Positions 27,999 to 38,438 of a stretch of DNA of 64,000 nucleotides are shown one piece after another. Position 1 is the first letter of the stretch. Each line of letters begins with the position of its first letter. Origin of the DNA: Rhodobacter sp. TJ_12 (lineage in GTDB: Bacteria > Pseudomonadota > Alphaproteobacteria > Rhodobacterales > Rhodobacteraceae). The position numbers and the translations under genes are program-made. Location: NCBI RefSeq assembly GCF_020023995.1, contig NZ_NRRD01000001.1, positions 186,001-250,000 on the forward strand, given 5' to 3'. The notes beneath the pieces are model-generated. The model was not told where the DNA came from. It saw only the letters and a program-made list of their open reading frames with translations, and did no database searches.

Positions 27999-28709
27999 AT
28001 GATCCTTGGCCATATAGGCGCCCGCAAAGGCTCCAAGGGTGTGCCCGGCAAAAACTTCCGCATGATCGCAGGCAAGCCCTTGATCGACTGGTCACTGGAT
28101 TTGCTGTTTGAAAGCGATCAGATCGGCGCGGTGGTGGTGTCGACCGATGACGCGCGGATTTATGACCATGCGGTGGCCAAGGGTGCGCTGGACATTGGCT
28201 TGCGCCCCGCGCATCTGGCGACCGATACCGCACCCAAATGGGGCGTGTGGCAGCATGCGCTGGAAGCGGCGCAAGAAAAGCTGGGCCAGCCCGTCACCGC
28301 TTTTGTCGATCTTGACTGCACCGCGCCTTTGCGGCTGGCGGAAGATGTCACCAATGCCGTCGAGCTTTTTGAAACGCAAAAGCCCGATATGGTGATGAGC
28401 GTTTGTGAAGCGCGCAAGAATCCCTATTTCAACCTTGTCGAGGCCGATGAAACCGGGGCGCTGCATGTCTCTAAGCCGCTGCCCGGGGGGGTCTGGTCGC
28501 GCCAAGCCGCGCCTAAGGTTTGGGAGCATGCGGCCTCCACCTATGTGCTGGATGCGGATTATCTGCGCCGCGCGAAAACGATTTACGAGGGCCGGGTGAT
28601 CCCCTTTGAGATGCCCGCCGAGCGGTGCTTGGATATTGATAGTCCGCTTGATTTCAAACTTGTCGAGATGCTCATGGCCGAGCGTCACAGCCCGGAGGCC
28701 ACGCAATGA
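27999..28709 (+). CDS. neuA: CMP-nonulosonate (N-acylneuraminate) cytidylyltransferase
   Basis: This 236-residue nucleotidyltransferase activates a nonulosonic acid by transfer of CMP from CTP. The signature GARKGSKGVPGKNFRMIAGK (residues 7-26) binds CTP; STDDARIYDHA, FVDLDCTAPLR and the late ERCLDIDSPLDFKLVE are typical of the NeuA/PseF/LegF group. Kdo-specific KdsB differs in these motifs. Which sugar it activates cannot be told. ATG 27999 has GAGGAG eight bases upstream. It starts a three-gene operon with an SDR and a Gfo/Idh enzyme, an order resembling the ptmB-ptmA pair of the Campylobacter legionaminate region. Confidence 0.82.
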   Translation: MILGHIGARKGSKGVPGKNFRMIAGKPLIDWSLDLLFESDQIGAVVVSTDDARIYDHAVAKGALDIGLRPAHLATDTAPKWGVWQHALEAAQEKLGQPVTAFVDLDCTAPLRLAEDVTNAVELFETQKPDMVMSVCEARKNPYFNLVEADETGALHVSKPLPGGVWSRQAAPKVWEHAASTYVLDADYLRRAKTIYEGRVIPFEMPAERCLDIDSPLDFKLVEMLMAERHSPEATQ

Positions 28710-29491
28710 CCCTGCAAGACCGCACCATCTTTATCACCGGCTCGGGCGGGGTTCTGGGCTCCACCTATGTGCGCCGGATGTTGGCCGAAGGTGCCCGCGT
28801 TGTGGCGACCGACCTGCCGGGCCACCGGGCCGAGGCTTTGCAAGCCGCGCATGAGGGCAATGAGAGCTTTCGCTTTTATGAACTGGATGTGGGGGATGAA
28901 GCGCAGGTCACCGAGATTTTTCAGCGCGTGATGAAAGACGGGTGGGAGCCGAATGTGGTGCTCAACAATGCCGCGATCACCGGCGAGATGCTGATGGGCG
29001 CGGGCAAAAGCTTCCCCGATTTTGCCGATACGACGGTGGCCGATTTTGAGCGCACGTTGCACACCAACCTGACCGGGGCTTTCATGGTCGCGCGGCAGAT
29101 GGACCGCGATATTGTTGGCCGCTATCCGGCGACGCTGATCAACGTGGCCTCGATGTATGCGCTCAATGGTGCGCATCACCCGATTTATGACGGGATGCCG
29201 TTCAAGAACTTCTCGGCCTACGGCATCACCAAGGCGGGCATTCACGGGCTGACGGTGTGGCTGGCGGGCTATTGGGCGCCGCGTAAGGCAACCGTCAACA
29301 CGATCGCGCCGGGGGCCGTGTTCAACGGCCATTCCGAGGAATTTCAGCGCCGCGTGGGTGAGTTGATCATGGCGGGGCGGATGGCCCAGCCCGATGAAAT
29401 CGCCGATGCGATGTTGTTCCTGTGCTCGGCCCAATCGGGCTATGTCACGGGGCAATTGCTCAATGTCGATGGCGGGTTTTCTGCATGGTAA
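28706..29491 (+). CDS. short-chain dehydrogenase/reductase, PtmA-like
   Basis: The 261-residue SDR has the NAD(P) motif TGSGGVLGSTYVRRMLAEGA near residue 10, NNAAITGEM near residue 90, the catalytic serine in NVASMYALNG and YGITK as the YxxxK motif near residue 172. The C-terminus NVDGGFSAW is usual for the family. Placement directly after neuA (ATGA overlap) suggests it works on the sugar precursor, as PtmA does in legionaminate synthesis. The substrate is inferred from context only. Its end overlaps the next gene by seven bases. Confidence 0.82.
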   Translation: MTLQDRTIFITGSGGVLGSTYVRRMLAEGARVVATDLPGHRAEALQAAHEGNESFRFYELDVGDEAQVTEIFQRVMKDGWEPNVVLNNAAITGEMLMGAGKSFPDFADTTVADFERTLHTNLTGAFMVARQMDRDIVGRYPATLINVASMYALNGAHHPIYDGMPFKNFSAYGITKAGIHGLTVWLAGYWAPRKATVNTIAPGAVFNGHSEEFQRRVGELIMAGRMAQPDEIADAMLFLCSAQSGYVTGQLLNVDGGFSAW

Positions 29492-30432
29492 GCCCGCATA
29501 TAGCGGTGATTGGCGCGGGCTCGATCGGGCGGCGCCATGCAGGCAATTTAGAGGCGCTGGGGGCCAAAGTCGCGCATATCGGTTGGCGGGAGTTTGATGC
29601 CACCGCCTTTGCTGCGCGCACAGATTTGGATGCGGTGGTGATTGCCACCGCCACGCAAATCCGCCTGCCGCTGATTGCGCTTTGCGCGCAGATGGGGCTG
29701 CCCTTCTATGTGGAAAAGCCGCTGACATGGAGCCTTGAGGAACTCGCTGCCATTCACAAGGTCGCGGCCCCGGTGGCAGATCGGTCGATGGTTGGCTTCA
29801 TGATGCGCTATCACCCGGCGCTGGTGGCGTTGGGGAAAGAAGACCTAAGCGACATCTACGCCTTTGCCTTTGAGATTGGCCATGATGTGCGGCAATGGCG
29901 GCCCAATTGGCGGTTTGGCGATAGTTACGCTGCCCTGCCAGAGGGCGGCGGGGTCCTGCTGGACCTGTCGCATGAGGTCGATATCGCGCAGACCCTGTTC
30001 CCCGGCCTTGCCTTGCAAGCGGTGGACAGCCTTGGCCATGCAGAGTTTCCGGGTGTGGATTTTGCCACCACCTTGCAACTGGCCGCGCCCGGTGGCCCGG
30101 TTGGCAGCGTGAGCATGGATTACCTCTCGCCCGTTTTCATCCGCCGCGCGCGGCTGCGTGGGCTGACGCGGAATATCGAAATCGACTTTCTCAAACCCTC
30201 GGTGAGTTACGTCTCTCCCGAAGGCACCGAGACGCGCGATTATCCTTTCGAGCGCAATGATATGTTCTTGGGCGCGATGGGCGATTTTCTGAAGCTGGTC
30301 ACCGAAGGGCCGGAAGCCGAAATCAGCCCGCAAGCGCCGCTCTTGCGTCAGTGCCTGCCGATCGATCAGTTGGTGGCCGAGGCGTGGGGCAAGCGCACCT
30401 TTCAGGGCAATATCGACCAAGATATGGGTTGA
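29485..30432 (+). CDS. Gfo/Idh/MocA-family oxidoreductase
   Basis: This 315-residue NAD-dependent sugar dehydrogenase begins MVSPHIAVIGAGSIGRRHAG (Rossmann fold). It carries PFYVEKPLTW (the EKP catalytic lysine) near residue 80 and LLDLSHEVDIAQTLFPG near residue 165, where the active-site aspartate and histidine lie. Such enzymes oxidise or reduce sugar hydroxyls or sugar nucleotides. With neuA and the SDR it probably belongs to nonulosonate or surface-glycan synthesis. ATG 29485 lies within the end of the SDR gene. Its stop at 30432 directly abuts the stop of the convergent waaA-like gene, with no intervening base. Confidence 0.82.
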   Translation: MVSPHIAVIGAGSIGRRHAGNLEALGAKVAHIGWREFDATAFAARTDLDAVVIATATQIRLPLIALCAQMGLPFYVEKPLTWSLEELAAIHKVAAPVADRSMVGFMMRYHPALVALGKEDLSDIYAFAFEIGHDVRQWRPNWRFGDSYAALPEGGGVLLDLSHEVDIAQTLFPGLALQAVDSLGHAEFPGVDFATTLQLAAPGGPVGSVSMDYLSPVFIRRARLRGLTRNIEIDFLKPSVSYVSPEGTETRDYPFERNDMFLGAMGDFLKLVTEGPEAEISPQAPLLRQCLPIDQLVAEAWGKRTFQGNIDQDMG

Positions 30433-31746
30433 TTAGCGCCGGGCGTTTTTCAACGCGCCCGGCAGTGCCGCAAAGAACCGGCCCACCCCGCCTGCATGAT
30501 CTGCAAAGAAGCGCTCAATCCTCGCAGGCTTTGGTTGATCTGGCCCGGCAAGGGCTTCGGCAAGTTCTGCCGCGTCCTTCACCCGCCGCGCCACGCCGGC
30601 GGCCTCGGCTTCCGTGAACGGATACTCAATCGTCCAAATCTCTGGCCCGGTCAGCACCGGCTTTTTCAGCGCCAAGGGTTCGATGATGTTATGCGCGCCC
30701 TTGGGGGTGAAGCCGCCACCCACCACCACCGCATCAGCGAGTGCGAGGTAGAAATACATCTCCCCCAGACTGTCGCCCAAAAGCACATCGGGCAGGGGCG
30801 TGGGGACGGTGAATTGGGCTTGGCCGTCCAGCACCTTTGGCAAGGCAGTGGAGCGGCGCGCCACGCGAAACCCGGCCTCTTTCAACAGCGCGCCGCAATC
30901 GCCAAACCGTTCCGGTTTGCGCGGCACATAGATGAAAAAGGGTTTCTCAGGCCCGCGGCTTAGCGCGCGCATCGCGGCCAAATAGGTTGCGTCTTCGCCT
31001 TCGACGGTGGAGGCAAAGGCAATCAAGCGCCGATCTGCCAACCCCAGCGCAGGGCGCGCCACGGCGGCAGCCTCCAGCAGCGCAGGCGGGATCGGTTGTT
31101 CAAAGCGTAACTCGCCGGTGACCGCGATGTTTTGCACCCCGACGGCGGCGAAGCGATCCGCCTGCAATTGCGATTTCACAAAAGCCCCCGCAAAGCCGCG
31201 CATCACGGCTTGGCGCAGCCGCAACCCGCCGGTGTCACGCGCAATCGCTTTGGTGGGATATTGCGCATTGCACATGAACAAGGGCACGCCCGCCGAACGC
31301 GCGGCAAAGACCATGCGCGGCCAGATCTCGATCTCCATCACGAGCCCGAATTTCGGCACAAAGGCGCGGAAAAAACCGCGATAGGCCCAAGCGGTTTCCA
31401 GCGGCACCCAGACCACATGCACGCGGCCTTCGGCGCGCTCAGGTGCAAAGACCTTTTCGGCTTCGCGCCGCCCTGCGGGGGTGAAACAGGTGATGACGAC
31501 GGTTTCACCCCGATCCAGAAAGGCACGTATCAAGGGCACGGCAGAGCGGAATTCGCCGAGCGAAACCGCATGCACCCACACCGCACCCCGGGCGCGGGCC
31601 GCATAGCGGCCGAAACGCTCCGCCAGATGGTCGCGATACAGCGCATCCTTGCGCGCGCGTCGCATCAGATAGGTAAGGATCAGCGGCAGGCCCAGCGTCC
31701 AAAGGGCGGACCATAGGCCAAGGAACAGGCGCAGTTTTAGCGGCAT
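30433..31746 (-). CDS. WaaA-like (GT30) 3-deoxy-octulosonate transferase, paralogue 1
   Basis: The 437-residue membrane-anchored GT30 protein has an N-terminal helix (FLGLWSALWTLGLPLILTYL). VWVHAVSLGEFRSAVPLI holds the conserved Gly-Glu catalytic motif, and MEIEIWPRMVFAARSAGVP lies near residue 140. WaaA moves Kdo from CMP-Kdo to lipid IV-A. The C-terminal donor motif, usually GGHNPLEP, reads GAHNIIEPLALKKPVL here, so this copy is the more divergent. It may be a Kdo transferase for a later residue or use another CMP-ulosonate. It is the last gene of the neuC operon, overlapping paralogue 2 by ten bases. Confidence 0.78.
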   Translation of the reverse strand: MPLKLRLFLGLWSALWTLGLPLILTYLMRRARKDALYRDHLAERFGRYAARARGAVWVHAVSLGEFRSAVPLIRAFLDRGETVVITCFTPAGRREAEKVFAPERAEGRVHVVWVPLETAWAYRGFFRAFVPKFGLVMEIEIWPRMVFAARSAGVPLFMCNAQYPTKAIARDTGGLRLRQAVMRGFAGAFVKSQLQADRFAAVGVQNIAVTGELRFEQPIPPALLEAAAVARPALGLADRRLIAFASTVEGEDATYLAAMRALSRGPEKPFFIYVPRKPERFGDCGALLKEAGFRVARRSTALPKVLDGQAQFTVPTPLPDVLLGDSLGEMYFYLALADAVVVGGGFTPKGAHNIIEPLALKKPVLTGPEIWTIEYPFTEAEAAGVARRVKDAAELAEALAGPDQPKPARIERFFADHAGGVGRFFAALPGALKNARR

Positions 31747-33014
31747 GATTGGGCCTCCATCAGGGCCATCAGGCGGGCGGCCAGCGCGCTGACATTTTGC
31801 GTGGCCTCGGTCACAAGCGCCTGCGCCTGCGCGGCCATCTTTGCGGCCTCTTCTGGATTGGGCATCGCCTGCGCCAGCGCACCGCGCGCCACACAGCGCG
31901 CCGCGCCTGTGGCATCAAGCGCGGCATAATCTGCCATGAAATTCGCGGTATCGGGGCCATGCAGCACCGGGCAGCCAAGCTGCACCGCTTCCCACGGGTT
32001 GTGCCCGCCAATGGCATCGAACCCGCCGCCCACAAGGGCCAGATCGGCCAGGCGATACCAAAGCCCCATTTCGCCCAACGTATCGGCCAGATAGACCTGT
32101 ATTTCGGGGGAAGGCTCGTCGCCCTTTGACCGTTGCGCCAAGCGCAGCCCGCGTGCCTGCACGCTTTGGGCAATGGCGTCGGCGCGGTCGATGAAGCGCG
32201 GCGCCAAAATCAAAAGGTCATCGGGCCGCGTGGCTTGGGCCGCCAAGGCTTCGGCTTCGTCCCCCGGATGGCACGACGCGGCAAGCCAGACCCGGCGCCC
32301 GGCCAGCGCCGTTTGCAGCGCATCGAGTTGCGCCTGGCCGGCCCCAAGCGGCGGCGCGGCCGGTTTGAGCGAGCCCGAAACCGTCACCCCCGGGGCGCCC
32401 AAAGCCGACAGATGGCGCGCGGTTGCGGCGTCTTGCGCATCAATCACCGCAAGAGCCTCAAACGCAGCGCGATAAAGCGGGGCCAGACGACGACGGCTTT
32501 CATAGCTGCGTGCGGCCATGCGCGCATTCACCAAAGCCTGCGGGATACCGCGCGCCTGTGCGGCAAAGATCGCGCCGGGCCAGAGGTCTTGTTCGGACCA
32601 GATCGCCAGATCGGGCCGCCAATGCTCCAAAAAGCGGCTGAGAAACGGCGCGGCATCCAGCGGCAAAAACTGGTGGCGGCACTTCGGCGGCATATCGCGG
32701 GCAATCACTTCCGCCGATCCGCGCGTGCCCGAGGTGATGAGAAATTCCAGATCGGGGGCCTGAGCCGCCAAAGCTTGGATCAGCCCGCGCAGCGCCATCG
32801 TCTCGCCCAGCCCCACGGCATGCAGCCACACAAGCCGCCCCTTGGGCCGGGGCAGGGTCGCATAGCCCAGCTTTTCGCGCCAACGCGCAGGCAGCTCGCG
32901 CCCCTTCGCCAAACGGCGCTTGAGCAGCACCGGCGCCAGCGGCACCAACGCCCAGCTTGCAAGCCCATAGGCCGCGCGGATCGCCGCGCCGCGCCGGGTG
33001 CGGCCCTTAGCCAT
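31737..33014 (-). CDS. waaA: WaaA-like (GT30) 3-deoxy-octulosonate transferase, paralogue 2
   Basis: This 425-residue second GT30 protein has an N-terminal hydrophobic stretch (AAYGLASWALVPLAPVLLKR), the catalytic segment LVWLHAVGLGETMALRGLI, IWSEQDLWPGAIFAAQARGIP and a near-canonical donor motif GGGFDAIGGHNPWEAVQLG. It therefore looks more like the housekeeping Kdo transferase than paralogue 1, although low overall similarity leaves the assignment open. ATG 33014 lies inside the end of neuC (eight-base overlap), which is the family start; the frame stays open upstream. The pairing with neuC ties CMP-ulosonate transfer to nonulosonate synthesis. Confidence 0.75.
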   Translation of the reverse strand: MAKGRTRRGAAIRAAYGLASWALVPLAPVLLKRRLAKGRELPARWREKLGYATLPRPKGRLVWLHAVGLGETMALRGLIQALAAQAPDLEFLITSGTRGSAEVIARDMPPKCRHQFLPLDAAPFLSRFLEHWRPDLAIWSEQDLWPGAIFAAQARGIPQALVNARMAARSYESRRRLAPLYRAAFEALAVIDAQDAATARHLSALGAPGVTVSGSLKPAAPPLGAGQAQLDALQTALAGRRVWLAASCHPGDEAEALAAQATRPDDLLILAPRFIDRADAIAQSVQARGLRLAQRSKGDEPSPEIQVYLADTLGEMGLWYRLADLALVGGGFDAIGGHNPWEAVQLGCPVLHGPDTANFMADYAALDATGAARCVARGALAQAMPNPEEAAKMAAQAQALVTEATQNVSALAARLMALMEAQSCR

Positions 33015-34128
33015 GATCGTTAAAGGTCTTTTGCAGCCCCGCTGACCAGAAACCGGGATCGTTGAGCGTTTGCAAAAACAATTGTGCCGCGCGCCCGCTG
33101 CCAAAGGCGGTATGCTGCGGGTAACGCTTGCCCCATTCCTGCGCCAAAAAAACGGTAATCGCCGCGCGATCTTGCGCCGGGGCCTTGAAGATCGAGGGGG
33201 CCTCGGCCCGGTTGGTTTGCCGCGTGCCGATATCGAGCGAGGGCACACCAAGGAAGGGCGCCTCGCGCACGCCTGCCGAGGAATTGCCGACCATACAGGC
33301 GGCATGTTTCATCAGTTCAGAGAAATGCGAAAACCGCATCGAGGGGATCAGCCGAAACCGGTCGCGGGGCAGCTTTTCCAATTCGGCAAAGATCGCCTCG
33401 GACCCCGGGTCGTTGTTGGGGGCGATCACCACGAACGGACGCCCGCTTTCGGCCAGCGCGCCAAACAGCCCCTGCGCCTGCGCGCCCATCGTCGCCACCT
33501 CAGAGGTCACGGGGTGAAAGGTGACGATACCGAAATCTTCAAACGGGATCTGGTAGCGATCGCGCACCGCCTCCAGCGTGACGCCCGAGGGGCCGGCGTG
33601 GAAATCCAGTTCCGGCGAGCCGATCACATGTACATTCGCATCGGGTTCGCCCAGCACCATCACGCGCCGTTTCGCCTCTTCCGACGATACAAAATGATGC
33701 GTGGACAGCTTGGTGTTGCAGTGGCGGAACATCTCATCAATCGTGCCCGACACCTCGCCGCCCTCGATATGGGCCGAGCGGATATAGTTCATCGCGCAGA
33801 CCAAGGCGCAGGCCAAAGCCTCGACCCGGTCGCCATGGATCACCACCAGATCTGGGCGATGTTCGATCACGAAATCGGAAAAGCCTGCAACCGTCTTGGC
33901 CAGCACCGTATCTTGCGGATCGCCGATGCGCTGATTGAGGAATTCATGGACTGCCACGCCCTGCATGCGCCGCACCTCGATCTTTGTCAGACCGTAGAAT
34001 TCAAGCATATGCATGCCGGTGACAAAGAAGGACACGTCGAACCCCGCGTCGCGCGCGGCGATGGCAAGCGGTTCGAGTTTGCCGAAATCGGCGCGGGTGC
34101 CGGTGACGAACAGGATCGATCGGGTCAT
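33007..34128 (-). CDS. neuC: UDP-GlcNAc 2-epimerase (hydrolysing), NeuC/LegG-like
   Basis: The 373-residue enzyme releases UDP (or GDP) while inverting C2, giving the ManNAc-type precursor for nonulosonates. The start SILFVTGTRADFGKLEPLA, HGDRVEALACALVCAMN, HIEGGEVSGTIDEMFRHCNT and NSSAGVREAPFLGVPSLDIG are hallmarks of the WecB/NeuC fold. The N-terminal TRADFGK fits NeuC rather than WecB. Exact substrate (UDP-GlcNAc or a diacetamido sugar) is unknown. ATG 34128 begins the family domain; 27 open codons precede it. It heads the neuC-waaA-waaA operon. Confidence 0.85.
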   Translation of the reverse strand: MTRSILFVTGTRADFGKLEPLAIAARDAGFDVSFFVTGMHMLEFYGLTKIEVRRMQGVAVHEFLNQRIGDPQDTVLAKTVAGFSDFVIEHRPDLVVIHGDRVEALACALVCAMNYIRSAHIEGGEVSGTIDEMFRHCNTKLSTHHFVSSEEAKRRVMVLGEPDANVHVIGSPELDFHAGPSGVTLEAVRDRYQIPFEDFGIVTFHPVTSEVATMGAQAQGLFGALAESGRPFVVIAPNNDPGSEAIFAELEKLPRDRFRLIPSMRFSHFSELMKHAACMVGNSSAGVREAPFLGVPSLDIGTRQTNRAEAPSIFKAPAQDRAAITVFLAQEWGKRYPQHTAFGSGRAAQLFLQTLNDPGFWSAGLQKTFNDHG

Positions 34129-34458
34129 GGGATGCCTGTCTCCTTGCAGCGCTTGGGCAAGCCGTCGCTCGCCTGCTGGGGCGAATGGATATATGCCCCG
34201 GCGCGTCAAGGGAAGTGGAAGAACCCTGTGGATCGCGTTGTTCTGTGCATGAAATCGGGTGCGCGCCGTTTTGCCAATGCCCTGAACTTTGTGGGCGCCG
34301 GATGTTTGGATCGCCTTGGTGAGGGGGGCAAAGCATTTAGAGAAAAGGCCAAAGCTTGCAGTTGGCCTTTTGGGGGGGCAATCAACTGGTGCGCTTCAGT
34401 GTGTAATAGCGCAGGCAACAAGTCGCCGTGCTGCCCACACTACAATACGCTTGGTTTC
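34129..34458. other. 330-base gap between fkbM and neuC genes
   Basis: I find no gene here. It holds the fkbM terminator (34343-34371) and, between that and 34128, presumably the neuC promoter, for which I could not pick a convincing -35/-10 pair. Confidence 0.4.
34343..34371 (-). terminator. terminator after fkbM
   Basis: AAAAGGCCAA 34343-34352 pairs with TTGGCCTTTT 34362-34371. On the minus strand the stem ends in a T-run, 88 bases beyond the fkbM stop. It separates fkbM from neuC. Confidence 0.75.
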
Positions 34459-35235
34459 TCAGGACGCAGGCTGTCGGGTGAAGAGTTCGACAGTGCCTCC
34501 GAGCGGCACCTTGTCCTGTATCAGACCCTGCCGTTCCATAGAGATGCGCACAGCGTCCAATTGCTCGGCGGATACCCGTCTGGGATGCATCTCGATCACC
34601 ACCGCACGTAGGCTGGAAAGATCCAAAGCCGGGATCAAATCCACCTCGCCGCCTTCGATGTCGCAAATCAGCACATCTGGTCGAAAGCGGGCGATCGCAT
34701 CGTCGGGATTTTCTGCGGGCACAGAAACGGTCTTGTGGCGCGTGCTGCCCGCATGGGGCACAAGGGAGCTGACCGCGAAAACCCGTGAGACATGGAAATC
34801 ACGCGTCTCGCCTGGGGTGGCATTGGGCACCAGAACGGCGTGGCGGAGTTCAACATTGGTTGCGCCGTGGCGGTCGAGAAATGTCTTGGTATCCTGCAAC
34901 AGGTTGGCATTGGCCTCATAGGCCAGAATACGGCCATCTTGGCCCACAGCGCGTGATGCCAGCGCCGTCACCACACCAAGGCCGGCCCCCAGTTCGATGA
35001 TCCTGTCGCCCGGACGCAGCACGCGCCAAAGTCCGTCGATCTCGGGCTTTTCATAAACGTTCGTTGCAATGCCCATGACGATTTCGGCGCTTATGCCCTC
35101 GCGGTTTAAGGGAATATCAAGGTCGGCGTAGCGCATCGTTGTCTTCAGACCAAAAAGGCGGATCGCTTTGACTTTCAGGGAAAGCCAGATCCGCCACAGT
35201 TCACGCTTAATCTTCCAAAAGGGGGGAATGCTCAT
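34459..35235 (-). CDS. FkbM-family methyltransferase
   Basis: The 258-residue SAM-dependent methyltransferase has motif I IIELGAGLGVVTALASRAVG near residue 80, then ILAYEANANLL, and the FkbM-type CDIEGGEVDLIPALDLSSLR near residue 188. Members often O-methylate sugars or lipids; the acceptor here is unknown. The N-terminus, MSIPPFWKIKRELWRIW, closely resembles that of the unrelated RgpF-like protein upstream. ATG 35235 and TTG 35238 are both possible, with GAGGAG about eight bases before the ATG. The 136-base gap before it contains an AT-rich patch likely to hold a promoter. Confidence 0.78.
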   Translation of the reverse strand: MSIPPFWKIKRELWRIWLSLKVKAIRLFGLKTTMRYADLDIPLNREGISAEIVMGIATNVYEKPEIDGLWRVLRPGDRIIELGAGLGVVTALASRAVGQDGRILAYEANANLLQDTKTFLDRHGATNVELRHAVLVPNATPGETRDFHVSRVFAVSSLVPHAGSTRHKTVSVPAENPDDAIARFRPDVLICDIEGGEVDLIPALDLSSLRAVVIEMHPRRVSAEQLDAVRISMERQGLIQDKVPLGGTVELFTRQPAS

Positions 35236-35371
35236 CAAGTAATCTCCTCGTTCGCGTATCGGTCACTCGGTCGTCGTAAAAATAAACCGTTATTAAACTA
35301 AATTAACAAAATGTGGCGCGGCTGTCTGCGTTGCGCGCGCACTTGGGCGCTTTTGCCCGAGGGGCTGGTGT

Positions 35372-36511
35372 CTATGCCGCCGTTCCGCCTTCGATCGCGC
35401 GCATTTCTGCCAGAACCTCGGGCCAAGGGGGGGGGATGTCGCCCGCATCGATGGCTTTCAAAAGCTGGGTCCGCATCTTGATCTGAACTGTGCCGAAGGC
35501 CTCGCCCATAAACAGCAGCCGGCTTTTCTTCACGAAAGGGATGCCCAGAAGGTGAAACGAGGCATATGGAAAGCTTGCATAGCTGCTCCGTCGGCGGAGA
35601 ACCTTTTCGATATGCGCGAGGGCGGTGTCTCGCCATTCGGCTTTGCCGGGTGCCTCGGCCAACAGGGTGTTGCGCTCAGCCTCAAATTCGGGGTCGGTAT
35701 AAGCGCCATATACGAGGGTTTTGTAGATGAATGCGTCGTCTTGCGCGCGCACCGCAGCGCAGACGGTTTCGGTGTTGATCAGGCCCTGAACAGAATGACC
35801 GGCCCTTTCAAGATAGCCCGAAAAGCTGCGTTCCCCGCGATAGACGGCGTTGAATTTGATCGAAGACACACGATAGTCGGTCCAAAATCGGCCAAAGGCC
35901 TCACTGTCCAGCGCAGGGCGATTGATCAGGTAAAAATAGCTTTCCAGAAAAGCGGGGCGTGTCTTTGAAACCTTGCGGCGTTTTTGCGCGCCATGGATAA
36001 CGGCGCCGACCAAGTCGCAATCGCTGGCCTCCATCCGATCGAGAAATGTCTCGTCGGGCCAGACCGGGAACCACACGCTATCATTCAGCACGATCAGCCG
36101 GTCGATCCTGACGCCGCGCTCGCGCAGCCACAGGATCCCATCGCGGTAGCCGCCGAAATCATAGCCGTAGTTCGGACGCACGATCATCTTCCACGCGCGT
36201 GAGCCCAACTGGCTAAGAGCGTCCGCCGACAGCGGCGTGTTCGAGATAACCAGCGGCGCATAGCCTTTTGCGGCCAGATGCTCGCATGTGCGCAGCACGC
36301 TTTTGCTGATCCCGCGCGGCTGGTAGATCAGCAGCAAGGCGACTTTGGGGGCCAAAGGCAGCGTGCCGTCATGCACCTTTAAAAGACGGTGGCGGTTGCG
36401 GTCATGCCGGCGCTGGATAAACGGCTCATAAATCCGACCCGCCGCTGCGTGCAGCATTTGGCGTGTGCGATCCAGCTCGCGATAGATCTTCCAAAGGGGC
36501 GGCATGGCCAT
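35372..36511 (-). CDS. RgpF-like rhamnan-synthesis family protein
   Basis: This 379-residue protein has the RgpF (rhamnan synthesis F) motifs PNYGYDFGGYRDGILWLRE near residue 115 and IVLNDSVWFPV near residue 140, then FLESYFYLINRPAL near residue 182. Such proteins are glycosyltransferase-related and act in polysaccharide assembly. The start ATG overlaps the neuB stop (TAATG). The N-terminus MAMPPLWKIYRELDRTRQ repeats the pattern seen in the FkbM neighbour and may be a shared membrane- or partner-docking helix. The transferred sugar is unknown. Confidence 0.75.
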   Translation of the reverse strand: MAMPPLWKIYRELDRTRQMLHAAAGRIYEPFIQRRHDRNRHRLLKVHDGTLPLAPKVALLLIYQPRGISKSVLRTCEHLAAKGYAPLVISNTPLSADALSQLGSRAWKMIVRPNYGYDFGGYRDGILWLRERGVRIDRLIVLNDSVWFPVWPDETFLDRMEASDCDLVGAVIHGAQKRRKVSKTRPAFLESYFYLINRPALDSEAFGRFWTDYRVSSIKFNAVYRGERSFSGYLERAGHSVQGLINTETVCAAVRAQDDAFIYKTLVYGAYTDPEFEAERNTLLAEAPGKAEWRDTALAHIEKVLRRRSSYASFPYASFHLLGIPFVKKSRLLFMGEAFGTVQIKMRTQLLKAIDAGDIPPPWPEVLAEMRAIEGGTAA

Positions 36512-37542
36512 TACCGATCCAGATCCTCCCACTTCAACTGGGTGTTGCGGGTAACTGCGCGGGTCAGCCGCTTGCCCACCACCTTGTCAAAGTCATAGCC
36601 CGCGATCTCGCCCGAACCGGGGCGGCGCGCCCAGATATCCGCTTCGGTGATCACATGACCCGCGGGCAGATCGGCATCGGCCACGACCGAGGCGCGGGCA
36701 AAGCGATAGACGGGCTCTTCGGCTTCGGTGCGTTGTTTGGGGTTGTTGGCGGCAATCCAGATTTCACGCGACCGGTCGATCAGCAAGCGCAATTCCGCCG
36801 GATCCATCGAATTGATGATATCGGGTCCCGCGCGGTAGCGGCTGTCGGTATAATGACGCTCAAGAATGCACGCGCCCAGCGCCACGGAAGCCAGCGCCAT
36901 TTCCGGCCCGATCGAATGATCTGAAAAGCCCACTGGCACGCCGGGGAAGGCGGTTTGCAATTCAGTCACGCCCTTGAGCGAGACGATTTCGGGCGGGGAA
37001 GGGTAGAGGTTGGTGCATTCGAGCAAAGCGAAATCCACACCCGAGGCTTGCAGGATTTCGACGCTGGCGCGGATCGTTTCAATCGTCTGCATCCCGGTTG
37101 ACAAGATCACCGGCTTGCCCTTGCGCGCGATATGACGAATGAGTGGCAGGTTATCCGCCTCGCCCGAGCCGATCTTGTAGCCGACGACGCCGATCTCTTC
37201 CAAAAACTCTGCCGCGGCGCGCGAAAACGGGGTCGAAAGATAAATCATCCCAAGGCTTTCGGTATAGCGCTTGAGCTCGATTTCATCGTCACGCGACAGC
37301 GCGCAGCGTGCCATCACCTCCCAGATCGAGACATCGGCATTGGGCGGAAAAATCTGCTTCGCCTCGTCGGTCATTTCGTCTTCAAGGATATGCGTCTGAT
37401 GCTTGACGCATTCGCACCCCGAAGCCGCGGCGAGCCGCACCATGTCCTTGGCGACCTCAAGCGAGCCGCCATGGTTGATGCCAATCTCGGCAATCACCAG
37501 CGGCGGGTGTTCGGGGCCAATGTCGCGCGGGCCAAGTTTCAT
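36511..37542 (-). CDS. neuB: nonulosonic acid synthase (NeuB/LegI/PseI family)
   Basis: The 343-residue enzyme condenses an N-acyl hexosamine with phosphoenolpyruvate to give a nine-carbon sialic-type acid. The TIM-barrel part shows VIAEIGINHGGSLEVAKDM, VKHQTHILEDEM, STPFSRAAAEFLEEIGV, KIGSGEADNLPLI, ILSTGMQT and GFSDHSIGPEMALASVALGA with ILERHYTDS. The C-terminal 60 residues are the SAF (antifreeze-like) domain with ADLPAGHVITEADIWARRPG. Distinguishing sialic, legionaminic and pseudaminic acid would need phylogeny. It overlaps the LpxL-like gene by four bases upstream. Confidence 0.9.
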   Translation of the reverse strand: MKLGPRDIGPEHPPLVIAEIGINHGGSLEVAKDMVRLAAASGCECVKHQTHILEDEMTDEAKQIFPPNADVSIWEVMARCALSRDDEIELKRYTESLGMIYLSTPFSRAAAEFLEEIGVVGYKIGSGEADNLPLIRHIARKGKPVILSTGMQTIETIRASVEILQASGVDFALLECTNLYPSPPEIVSLKGVTELQTAFPGVPVGFSDHSIGPEMALASVALGACILERHYTDSRYRAGPDIINSMDPAELRLLIDRSREIWIAANNPKQRTEAEEPVYRFARASVVADADLPAGHVITEADIWARRPGSGEIAGYDFDKVVGKRLTRAVTRNTQLKWEDLDR

Positions 37543-38438
37543 TCGTTGTCACTCCCTTGGGCGCGGCGGGCGCGCACTTGTTCAGACCCCCAGCGGTCAT
37601 GCACCCAAAGCCATTGGTCGGGGGTGCTGCGCACGCGCGCCTCCAACCGGCGGGTCATTTCCTCGGTCATTTCGCGCGGCGTGGTCGCGGCGATGGGCGT
37701 TTCGAAATGCACCACATGGTGAATGCCGTCTTCGCAGCGCCGGGTAAACACCGGCAAAAGCAGCGCCCCGGTCTTGAGCGGCATTTCTGCGGCAAAGGTC
37801 GAGGTGGGCGCAGGATGGCCAAAGAAATCGACATCGGGGTATTGCGAGGCGCGCACGTCGAACAGCATCGCCCCGACCCCCCCGGCCTTCACATACCGGG
37901 TAAAGCCAATCACCCCCTGACGCCCCTGCGCGAAAGCGGGGCCGGTCAGGCTTTCCATCGTCGTCTTGTAATGTGCATTGAAATAGGGGTTCGTGGCCGG
38001 GCGATAAAGCGCCGCGACCGGGTGCCCCATATTGTGAATCGCAACGCGCAGCGTTTCGTAATTGCCGATATGGCCCGAGACGATCAACACCCCGCGCCCT
38101 TCGGCCAGTGCGGCGTTGAAATCGGCAAGGCCCGGCCCTTCGATCGTGCTTTCGCGCAGCACTTCGGCCAATTCGTCCTTGCAGTAATTCTCGATCGTGT
38201 TGCGGCCAAAGTTGATCGCAACGCGGCGCGCGATCTTGCGGGCCTCGGCGCGGGACATGTCGGGGTGGATGAAGCGCAGGTTGCGTTCAGCCTTGGTGAT
38301 GAACCCCCCCAAAGGGGCCACGATATAGCCAGACGCCCAGCCAAAAAGCCGTAAACGGGTGCGATAGGGAACGCGACGCGCCAGCCAGATCAAAGCCCTG
38401 AGGAAAGCATCGCTTACCCTGTCCGAGTTCCAAGCCAT
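37539..38438 (-). CDS. LpxL/HtrB-like lipid A acyltransferase
   Basis: This 299-residue membrane-associated acyltransferase has the HX4E catalytic motif in SGHIGNYETLR near residue 120. Other family segments are RRVAINFGRNTIENYC and VGAMLFDVRASQYPDVDFFG, where many members have DQR or DVR near the active site. It ends with the usual WVHDRWG. The enzyme would add a secondary acyl chain to lipid A, linking the cluster to the outer-membrane lipopolysaccharide. ATG 38438 begins the family domain. It is the first gene of the operon with neuB and the RgpF-like gene. Confidence 0.82.
   Translation of the reverse strand: MAWNSDRVSDAFLRALIWLARRVPYRTRLRLFGWASGYIVAPLGGFITKAERNLRFIHPDMSRAEARKIARRVAINFGRNTIENYCKDELAEVLRESTIEGPGLADFNAALAEGRGVLIVSGHIGNYETLRVAIHNMGHPVAALYRPATNPYFNAHYKTTMESLTGPAFAQGRQGVIGFTRYVKAGGVGAMLFDVRASQYPDVDFFGHPAPTSTFAAEMPLKTGALLLPVFTRRCEDGIHHVVHFETPIAATTPREMTEEMTRRLEARVRSTPDQWLWVHDRWGSEQVRARRAQGSDNE

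Follow-up and report, generated by a model that had tools for sequence, protein, structure and literature searches.

A GT30 paralogue that co-occurs with sialic acid synthesis genes in Rhodobacter is a candidate N-acetylneuraminic acid transferase of the lipopolysaccharide inner core

Glycosyltransferase family 30 (GT30) is described as a family of transferases that use cytidine monophosphate-3-deoxy-D-manno-oct-2-ulosonic acid (CMP-Kdo) (PMC5811610). KdoT of Acinetobacter baumannii, an inner-core Kdo transferase that acts after the GT30 enzyme WaaA, has been assigned to no known glycosyltransferase family (PMC12856342), and the Lst sialyltransferase of Neisseria gonorrhoeae can add Kdo (PMC8092323). 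Here we describe a locus of Rhodobacter sp. TJ_12 within a stretch of 64,000 nucleotides (the window; contig NZ_NRRD01000001.1, positions 186,001 to 250,000), in which two converging operons at 27999-38438 hold neuA, neuB, and neuC together with two overlapping GT30 (WaaA-like) genes, A and B. We propose that B probably transfers N-acetylneuraminic acid (Neu5Ac) from CMP-Neu5Ac into the inner core of lipopolysaccharide (LPS), as suggested by its residues, its descent, and its co-occurrence with NeuC.

Residues and descent of the GT30 proteins

The TJ_12 genome contains three GT30 genes, of which A and B lie within the window and T lies outside it. A and B both pass Pfam PF04413 (B with 144.6 bits against a cut-off of 23.9), and an AlphaFold2 model of B, with a predicted local distance difference test score of 94.8, has a GT-B fold and WaaA 2xci as its top PDB match. 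Both proteins miss the NCBIfam WaaA cut-offs (best scores 311.5 against 617 for A and 320.7 against 524 for B). We aligned 88 B rows with 142 other GT30 rows, consisting of 78 A, 27 further rows from the family, 8 of a type called S that is described below, and 29 from other families. Five T rows were kept separate, and open reading frames beyond length and score limits were dropped.

Eight residues, H59, G64, E65, E138, W142, R276, N353, and E356, are invariant in all 88 B rows. In a mapping to Aquifex WaaA that was counted by hand from HMMER alignments (chain offset 21), E65, E138, R276, N353, and E356 correspond to Aquifex E31, the proposed base; E98, a possible Kdo contact; R212 and N273, which contact phosphate; and E276, which contacts ribose (PMC6286764). 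Aquifex K162, which may position Kdo (PMC6286764), corresponds to the K214 position, where all 142 other GT30s have lysine and 88 of 88 B rows have arginine. Further positions altered in B are R162 (kept in 142 of 142 others), Q191 (140 of 142), H248, G351, and N372, and A retains the residues that are altered in B. Of the two copies, B alone has the proposed Kdo-positioning lysine replaced by arginine, while its proposed catalytic glutamate and CMP contacts are kept. On these residues, B resembles an active enzyme that uses CMP and whose sugar or acceptor site is altered.

An earlier reading of the window, made from the sequence alone (hereafter the sequence-only reading), had emphasized another change, the donor motif GAHNIIEP where GGHNP-E was expected. 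Against solved WaaA chains (GGHNLLEP in 2xci and GGHNILEP in 4bfc), only the replacement of G by A is unusual, so the change was overstated. As one conserved residue separates B from the solved WaaAs there, GGHN-to-GAHN was dropped as main evidence; the stronger B-specific changes sit outside this motif.

The two copies also differ in descent. We built a tree of 142 GT30s, hand-chosen among the matches listed, using a quick method with support from the Shimodaira-Hasegawa-like approximate likelihood ratio test (SH-aLRT) only and a root for drawing only. B forms a single long-stemmed clade of 37 rows (stem 1.61, SH-aLRT 100) on the same side of the tree as non-alphaproteobacterial WaaAs, and A groups among alphaproteobacterial GT30s. 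The A-type clade (48 rows, SH-aLRT 99) is likewise tied to genomes with B: it includes 12 of the 13 family rows from such genomes, with G190 as the exception, and 0 of the 13 from B-less genomes; G162 falls outside. This tie could mean that the roles are swapped, with A as the nonulosonate transferase and B as the Kdo transferase, as could the finding that in G020 and G055 A-type genes adjoin neuC and B lies elsewhere. Since A matches other GT30s at their conserved residues and B does not, and B is found with neuA, neuB, and neuC in five loci with no A nearby, we consider such a swap quite unlikely.

The third copy, T, was considered as the Kdo transferase of the genome, but in the five T rows of the genus most residues that are invariant elsewhere in GT30 have changed. 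T may be a degenerate or repurposed WaaA. With T altered in this way, A is the only TJ_12 GT30 that resembles an intact Kdo transferase. Genomes of the genus that lack B (L014 to L021) contain a different, long-branched GT30 (S) instead of A and B. We also observed a fourth, divergent GT30 in G025, at L273:2028-3392, near folK and relA homologues.

Co-occurrence of B with NeuC

In a genus sample of 18 genomes, two of them 81-84% complete, B (threshold at least 57% identity) was present in nine and NeuC in exactly the same nine (9/9 with B versus 0/9 without). In five of these nine (G002, G003, G004, G010, and G016), the neu genes are unlinked from B. The family sample comprised 246 evenly drawn genomes from 245 genera, with B detected at E<=1e-70 and NeuC at E<=1e-60. 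B was found in 37 genomes, NeuC in 47, and both in 36; thus, NeuC occurs in 36 of 37 genomes with B versus 11 of 209 without (Fisher p = 2.8e-32, uncorrected for descent). B and the neu genes are also unlinked in the family genomes G020, G055, and G250. Because B and NeuC persist together where they are unlinked, linkage alone was ruled out as the cause of their co-occurrence.

Most of the genomes with both proteins share one type of NeuC. The window type (57-77% identity) is present in 34 of the 36, namely the window genome and 33 of the 35 others, and the two exceptions, G065 and G190, carry a distant NeuC alone (30-31% identity). In G190, a neuB that is 75% identical adjoins B. Nine of the 11 family genomes with NeuC and without B have the distant type (29-33% identity), and two have the window type. 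The sole B match without NeuC, in G162 (37-38% identity), retains the Kdo-type lysine and glycine and is therefore without the B signature.

In a phylum sample of 40 genomes, we found two GT30s, and no more, in G569, which lies outside Alphaproteobacteria. Its locus has a rearranged order, with neuB (73%), neuC (67%), neuA (33%), B (41%), and A (50%). The G569 B falls in the B clade (SH-aLRT 100), and the G569 A adjoins the Rhodobacteraceae A clade (91). The association goes beyond chance, as it is seen again across the genus, across the family, and in this one genome of another class. A class sample of 290 genomes yielded B in at least three, all Rhodobacteraceae, with five family members among the matches listed.

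One explanation is that B and the neu genes are merely co-inherited LPS genes and that B serves core assembly in some unrelated way, as an LpxL-like or other surface-sugar gene often accompanies them. However, the association persists in the five genus and three family genomes where the genes are unlinked, as well as in another class, and we regard this explanation as very unlikely. The sequence-only reading had suggested a CMP-nonulosonate as the donor, and LPS as the target, of one GT30 paralogue. The co-occurrence with NeuC, its persistence without linkage, the rearranged set, and the lysine-to-arginine change support this suggestion for B.

Gene content of the locus and the sugar it makes

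The plus strand of the locus carries, in order, neuA and genes for a short-chain dehydrogenase/reductase (SDR) and a Gfo/Idh-type protein; the minus strand carries genes for LpxL-like, NeuB, RgpF-like, FkbM, NeuC, GT30 A, and GT30 B proteins (Table 1). The two operons converge at 30432/30433 with zero gap. The division of neuA, neuB, and neuC between them, as claimed in the sequence-only reading, was confirmed, as were the overlaps it reported, of 8 bases between neuC and A and 10 bases between A and B.

Table 1. GT30 genes and neighboring features. Positions refer to the window except for T; locus counts are for genes within 8 kb of B.
Feature	Position	Strand	Basis
neuA, CMP-nonulosonate (probably CMP-Neu5Ac) synthetase	27999..28709	+	passes PF02348; best solved relatives are CMP-Neu5Ac synthetases; below all NCBIfam cut-offs
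SDR-family oxidoreductase	28706..29491	+	PF13561; 36/80 loci
Gfo/Idh/MocA-type oxidoreductase	29485..30432	+	PF01408; 37/80 loci
GT30 B, proposed CMP-Neu5Ac transferase	30433..31746	-	PF04413; own clade; residues; co-occurrence with NeuC
GT30 A, probable WaaA (Kdo transferase)	31737..33014	-	PF04413; conserved residues; alphaproteobacterial WaaA side of tree
neuC, hydrolysing uridine diphosphate-N-acetylglucosamine (UDP-GlcNAc) 2-epimerase	33007..34128	-	TIGR03568 above cut-off; solved relatives
FkbM-family methyltransferase, variable accessory gene	34459..35238	-	TIGR01444 above cut-off; 6/80 loci
RgpF-like protein (rhamnan synthesis family), probable accessory glycosyltransferase	35372..36511	-	PF05045; 15/80 loci
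neuB, N-acetylneuraminate synthase	36511..37542	-	best model TIGR03569, below cut-off; closest solved relative meningococcal NeuB/SiaC
LpxL-like lipid A acyltransferase	37539..38438	-	PF03279; 19/80 loci
GT30 T, 404 amino acids	L004:5348-6562 (G000 contig C1, outside window)		adjoins lpxK (LpxK identity confirmed)

NeuC scores 352.7 bits against an NCBIfam cut-off of 235.9. NeuB, at 345 bits, is below its cut-off of 399.65, although N-acetylneuraminate synthase is the top-scoring model; among solved structures, it matches the meningococcal N-acetylneuraminate synthase with 356 bits and a pseudaminic acid synthase with 134. The locus thus contains a Neu5Ac synthesis cassette of a hydrolysing NeuC, a Neu5Ac-type NeuB, and NeuA. 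None of the ten cassette proteins is LegB, LegC, PseB, or PseC (LegB and LegC were not searched for elsewhere in the genome). A pseudaminic or legionaminic acid cassette was ruled out, since NeuB fits a Neu5Ac synthase far better than PseI and the cassette is without LegB and LegC. The product is likely CMP-Neu5Ac or a close relative. More distant relatives of the SDR and Gfo-type genes (28706-30432) adjoin neuA in the B-less loci L221, L229, and L230, and two of these loci encode LegB and LegC that score above cut-off.

CMP-Kdo is probably also made in TJ_12, because the genome encodes KdsA and a second, KdsB-like cytidylyltransferase. Loss of Kdo synthesis was ruled out on the same grounds. 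Among the nine neu-positive genomes of the genus, the one miss for KdsA was G015, a draft assembly of many contigs.

Of 233 named matches to B, the closest of which is from R. aestuarii (91%), we took the best 80 and counted the neighboring genes up to 8 kb from B. The most frequent are neuC (75 loci), A (73), neuA (65), and neuB (64). Four of the five loci without neuC near B are on contigs of less than 7 kb, and the fifth is L118. No A is nearby in seven loci (L069, L072, L073, L078, L079, L094, and L134); L094 is cut by a contig end, and the L069 genome has an A-type copy elsewhere. The LpxL-like gene, which the sequence-only reading had taken as support for an LPS target, is present in the neuB operon, but with 19 of 80 loci having it near B, the support is weak.

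Two further proteins were noted in related loci. A protein without a Pfam match, possibly a glycosyltransferase, adjoins neuA at L046:15281-16315; its relatives occur in up to 39 of 101 sequences, including that of G569, and it is not in the window. In one Rhodobacter-group genome, a PF05159 (capsule polysaccharide biosynthesis) protein is encoded between neuB and neuC (L045:4679-5881), with relatives in 7 of 101 sequences.

Proposed function and known systems

From the gene content, co-occurrence, clade structure, and residue signature observed here, we infer a donor, an acceptor, a linkage, and an order of steps. NeuC, NeuB, and NeuA would make CMP-Neu5Ac or a close relative, and A, as an ordinary WaaA, would transfer Kdo from CMP-Kdo onto lipid A. 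In B, the sugar pocket would be changed such that Neu5Ac is accepted rather than Kdo, with CMP binding and the catalytic glutamate kept. B would add Neu5Ac in the inner core, most likely onto the Kdo placed by A, and the variable glycosyltransferases encoded between neuB and neuC would then probably extend the chain.

Several points weigh against this proposal. G065 contains B, and only a distant NeuC was found there; conversely, G033 and G205 contain a window-type NeuC without B. The NCBIfam WaaA cut-offs are missed by A just as by B, so the role of A, too, rests on residues and descent. A B-specific change of donor and a B-specific change of acceptor cannot be told apart by sequence. As for other sialyltransferases, a search of 62 genomes gave no match to GT52, the family of gonococcal Lst, or to GT42, but control genomes gave none either, so their absence is not established, and GT38, GT80, and GT4-type enzymes were not searched. 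Lastly, G114 (L267:5896-9412) and G246 (L218) carry B with neuA, neuB, and neuC, and no A was found in either. The sole other GT30 found in G114 (100% complete) lacks most key residues, and no GT30 besides B was found in G246 (96% complete).

The simplest model leaves G114 and G246 unexplained, and B may do more than follow A. In these two genomes, lipid A may be the direct acceptor for B, or B may carry out both steps. No GT30 other than B that looks intact was found in either, and both have neuA, neuB, and neuC. We give a slim chance to the idea that in some relatives a B-type enzyme acts directly on lipid A and the first core sugar is sialic acid rather than Kdo. LPS that lacks the usual Kdo step could be sought in G114 and G246.

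These two genomes could also indicate that B is still a Kdo transferase whose Kdo, either a second one or one beside Neu5Ac, is required only when the core is sialylated, and that a variable glycosyltransferase attaches Neu5Ac. Membership in GT30 and a fold closest to WaaA are consistent with this possibility, and there is room for other genes: where neuB is upstream of neuC, 58 of 62 loci have at least 0.8 kb between them. Yet B has arginine where every other aligned GT30 has the proposed Kdo-positioning lysine. Moreover, when accessory proteins were tested for constancy, none matched B (at most 39 of 101 sequences; the RgpF-like protein is in 15 of 80 loci), and 20 of the 21 B-less genomes searched have a GT30 of their own. 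We therefore consider a retained Kdo transferase activity unlikely and favor transfer of Neu5Ac by B.

In literature searches limited to open-licence PubMed Central, no GT30/WaaA sialyltransferase or nonulosonate transferase turned up. If our proposal is correct and a subfamily of GT30 uses CMP-Neu5Ac, it would be an example of how a core enzyme of LPS came to use another sugar donor. Sialic-acid LPS would also appear to be widespread in Rhodobacteraceae, given B matches in 37 of 246 genomes (including G162, which is without the signature).

R. capsulatus is listed among bacteria with Neu5Ac in LPS in a review (PMC9631793) that cites Krauss et al. 1992 for a sialic-acid trisaccharide from strain 37b4. 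Among our genus genomes, G003 represents R. capsulatus SB 1003: a 12 kb part of its second contig was compared with NC_014035.1 and matched it at 100% identity. This genome has A, B, and neuABC. The sialic acid of the 37b4 trisaccharide is reported to be at the reducing end, a placement that would agree with the inner core. If our proposal holds, B would be the proposed transferase behind the sialic-acid LPS reported in this species.

Among known systems, the 37b4 LPS, known as a chemical report (cited in PMC9631793), comes from the same genus as TJ_12 and from a species whose strain SB 1003 has A, B, and neuABC. Like WaaA/KdtA of GT30 (Aquifex aeolicus 2xci/2xcu and Acinetobacter baumannii 4bfc), B has PF04413, a GT-B fold, the proposed catalytic glutamate, and the CMP contacts; unlike WaaA/KdtA, B has arginine in place of the proposed Kdo-positioning K162, differs at five more positions that are strongly conserved, and tracks nonulosonate genes. 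Lst resembles the proposed B in that its donor use crosses between CMP-Neu5Ac and CMP-Kdo (PMC8092323), although in the opposite direction and in an enzyme that is not a GT30. KdoT, like the proposed B, is a second inner-core ulosonate transferase that acts after WaaA, but the sugar that it transfers is Kdo (PMC12856342).

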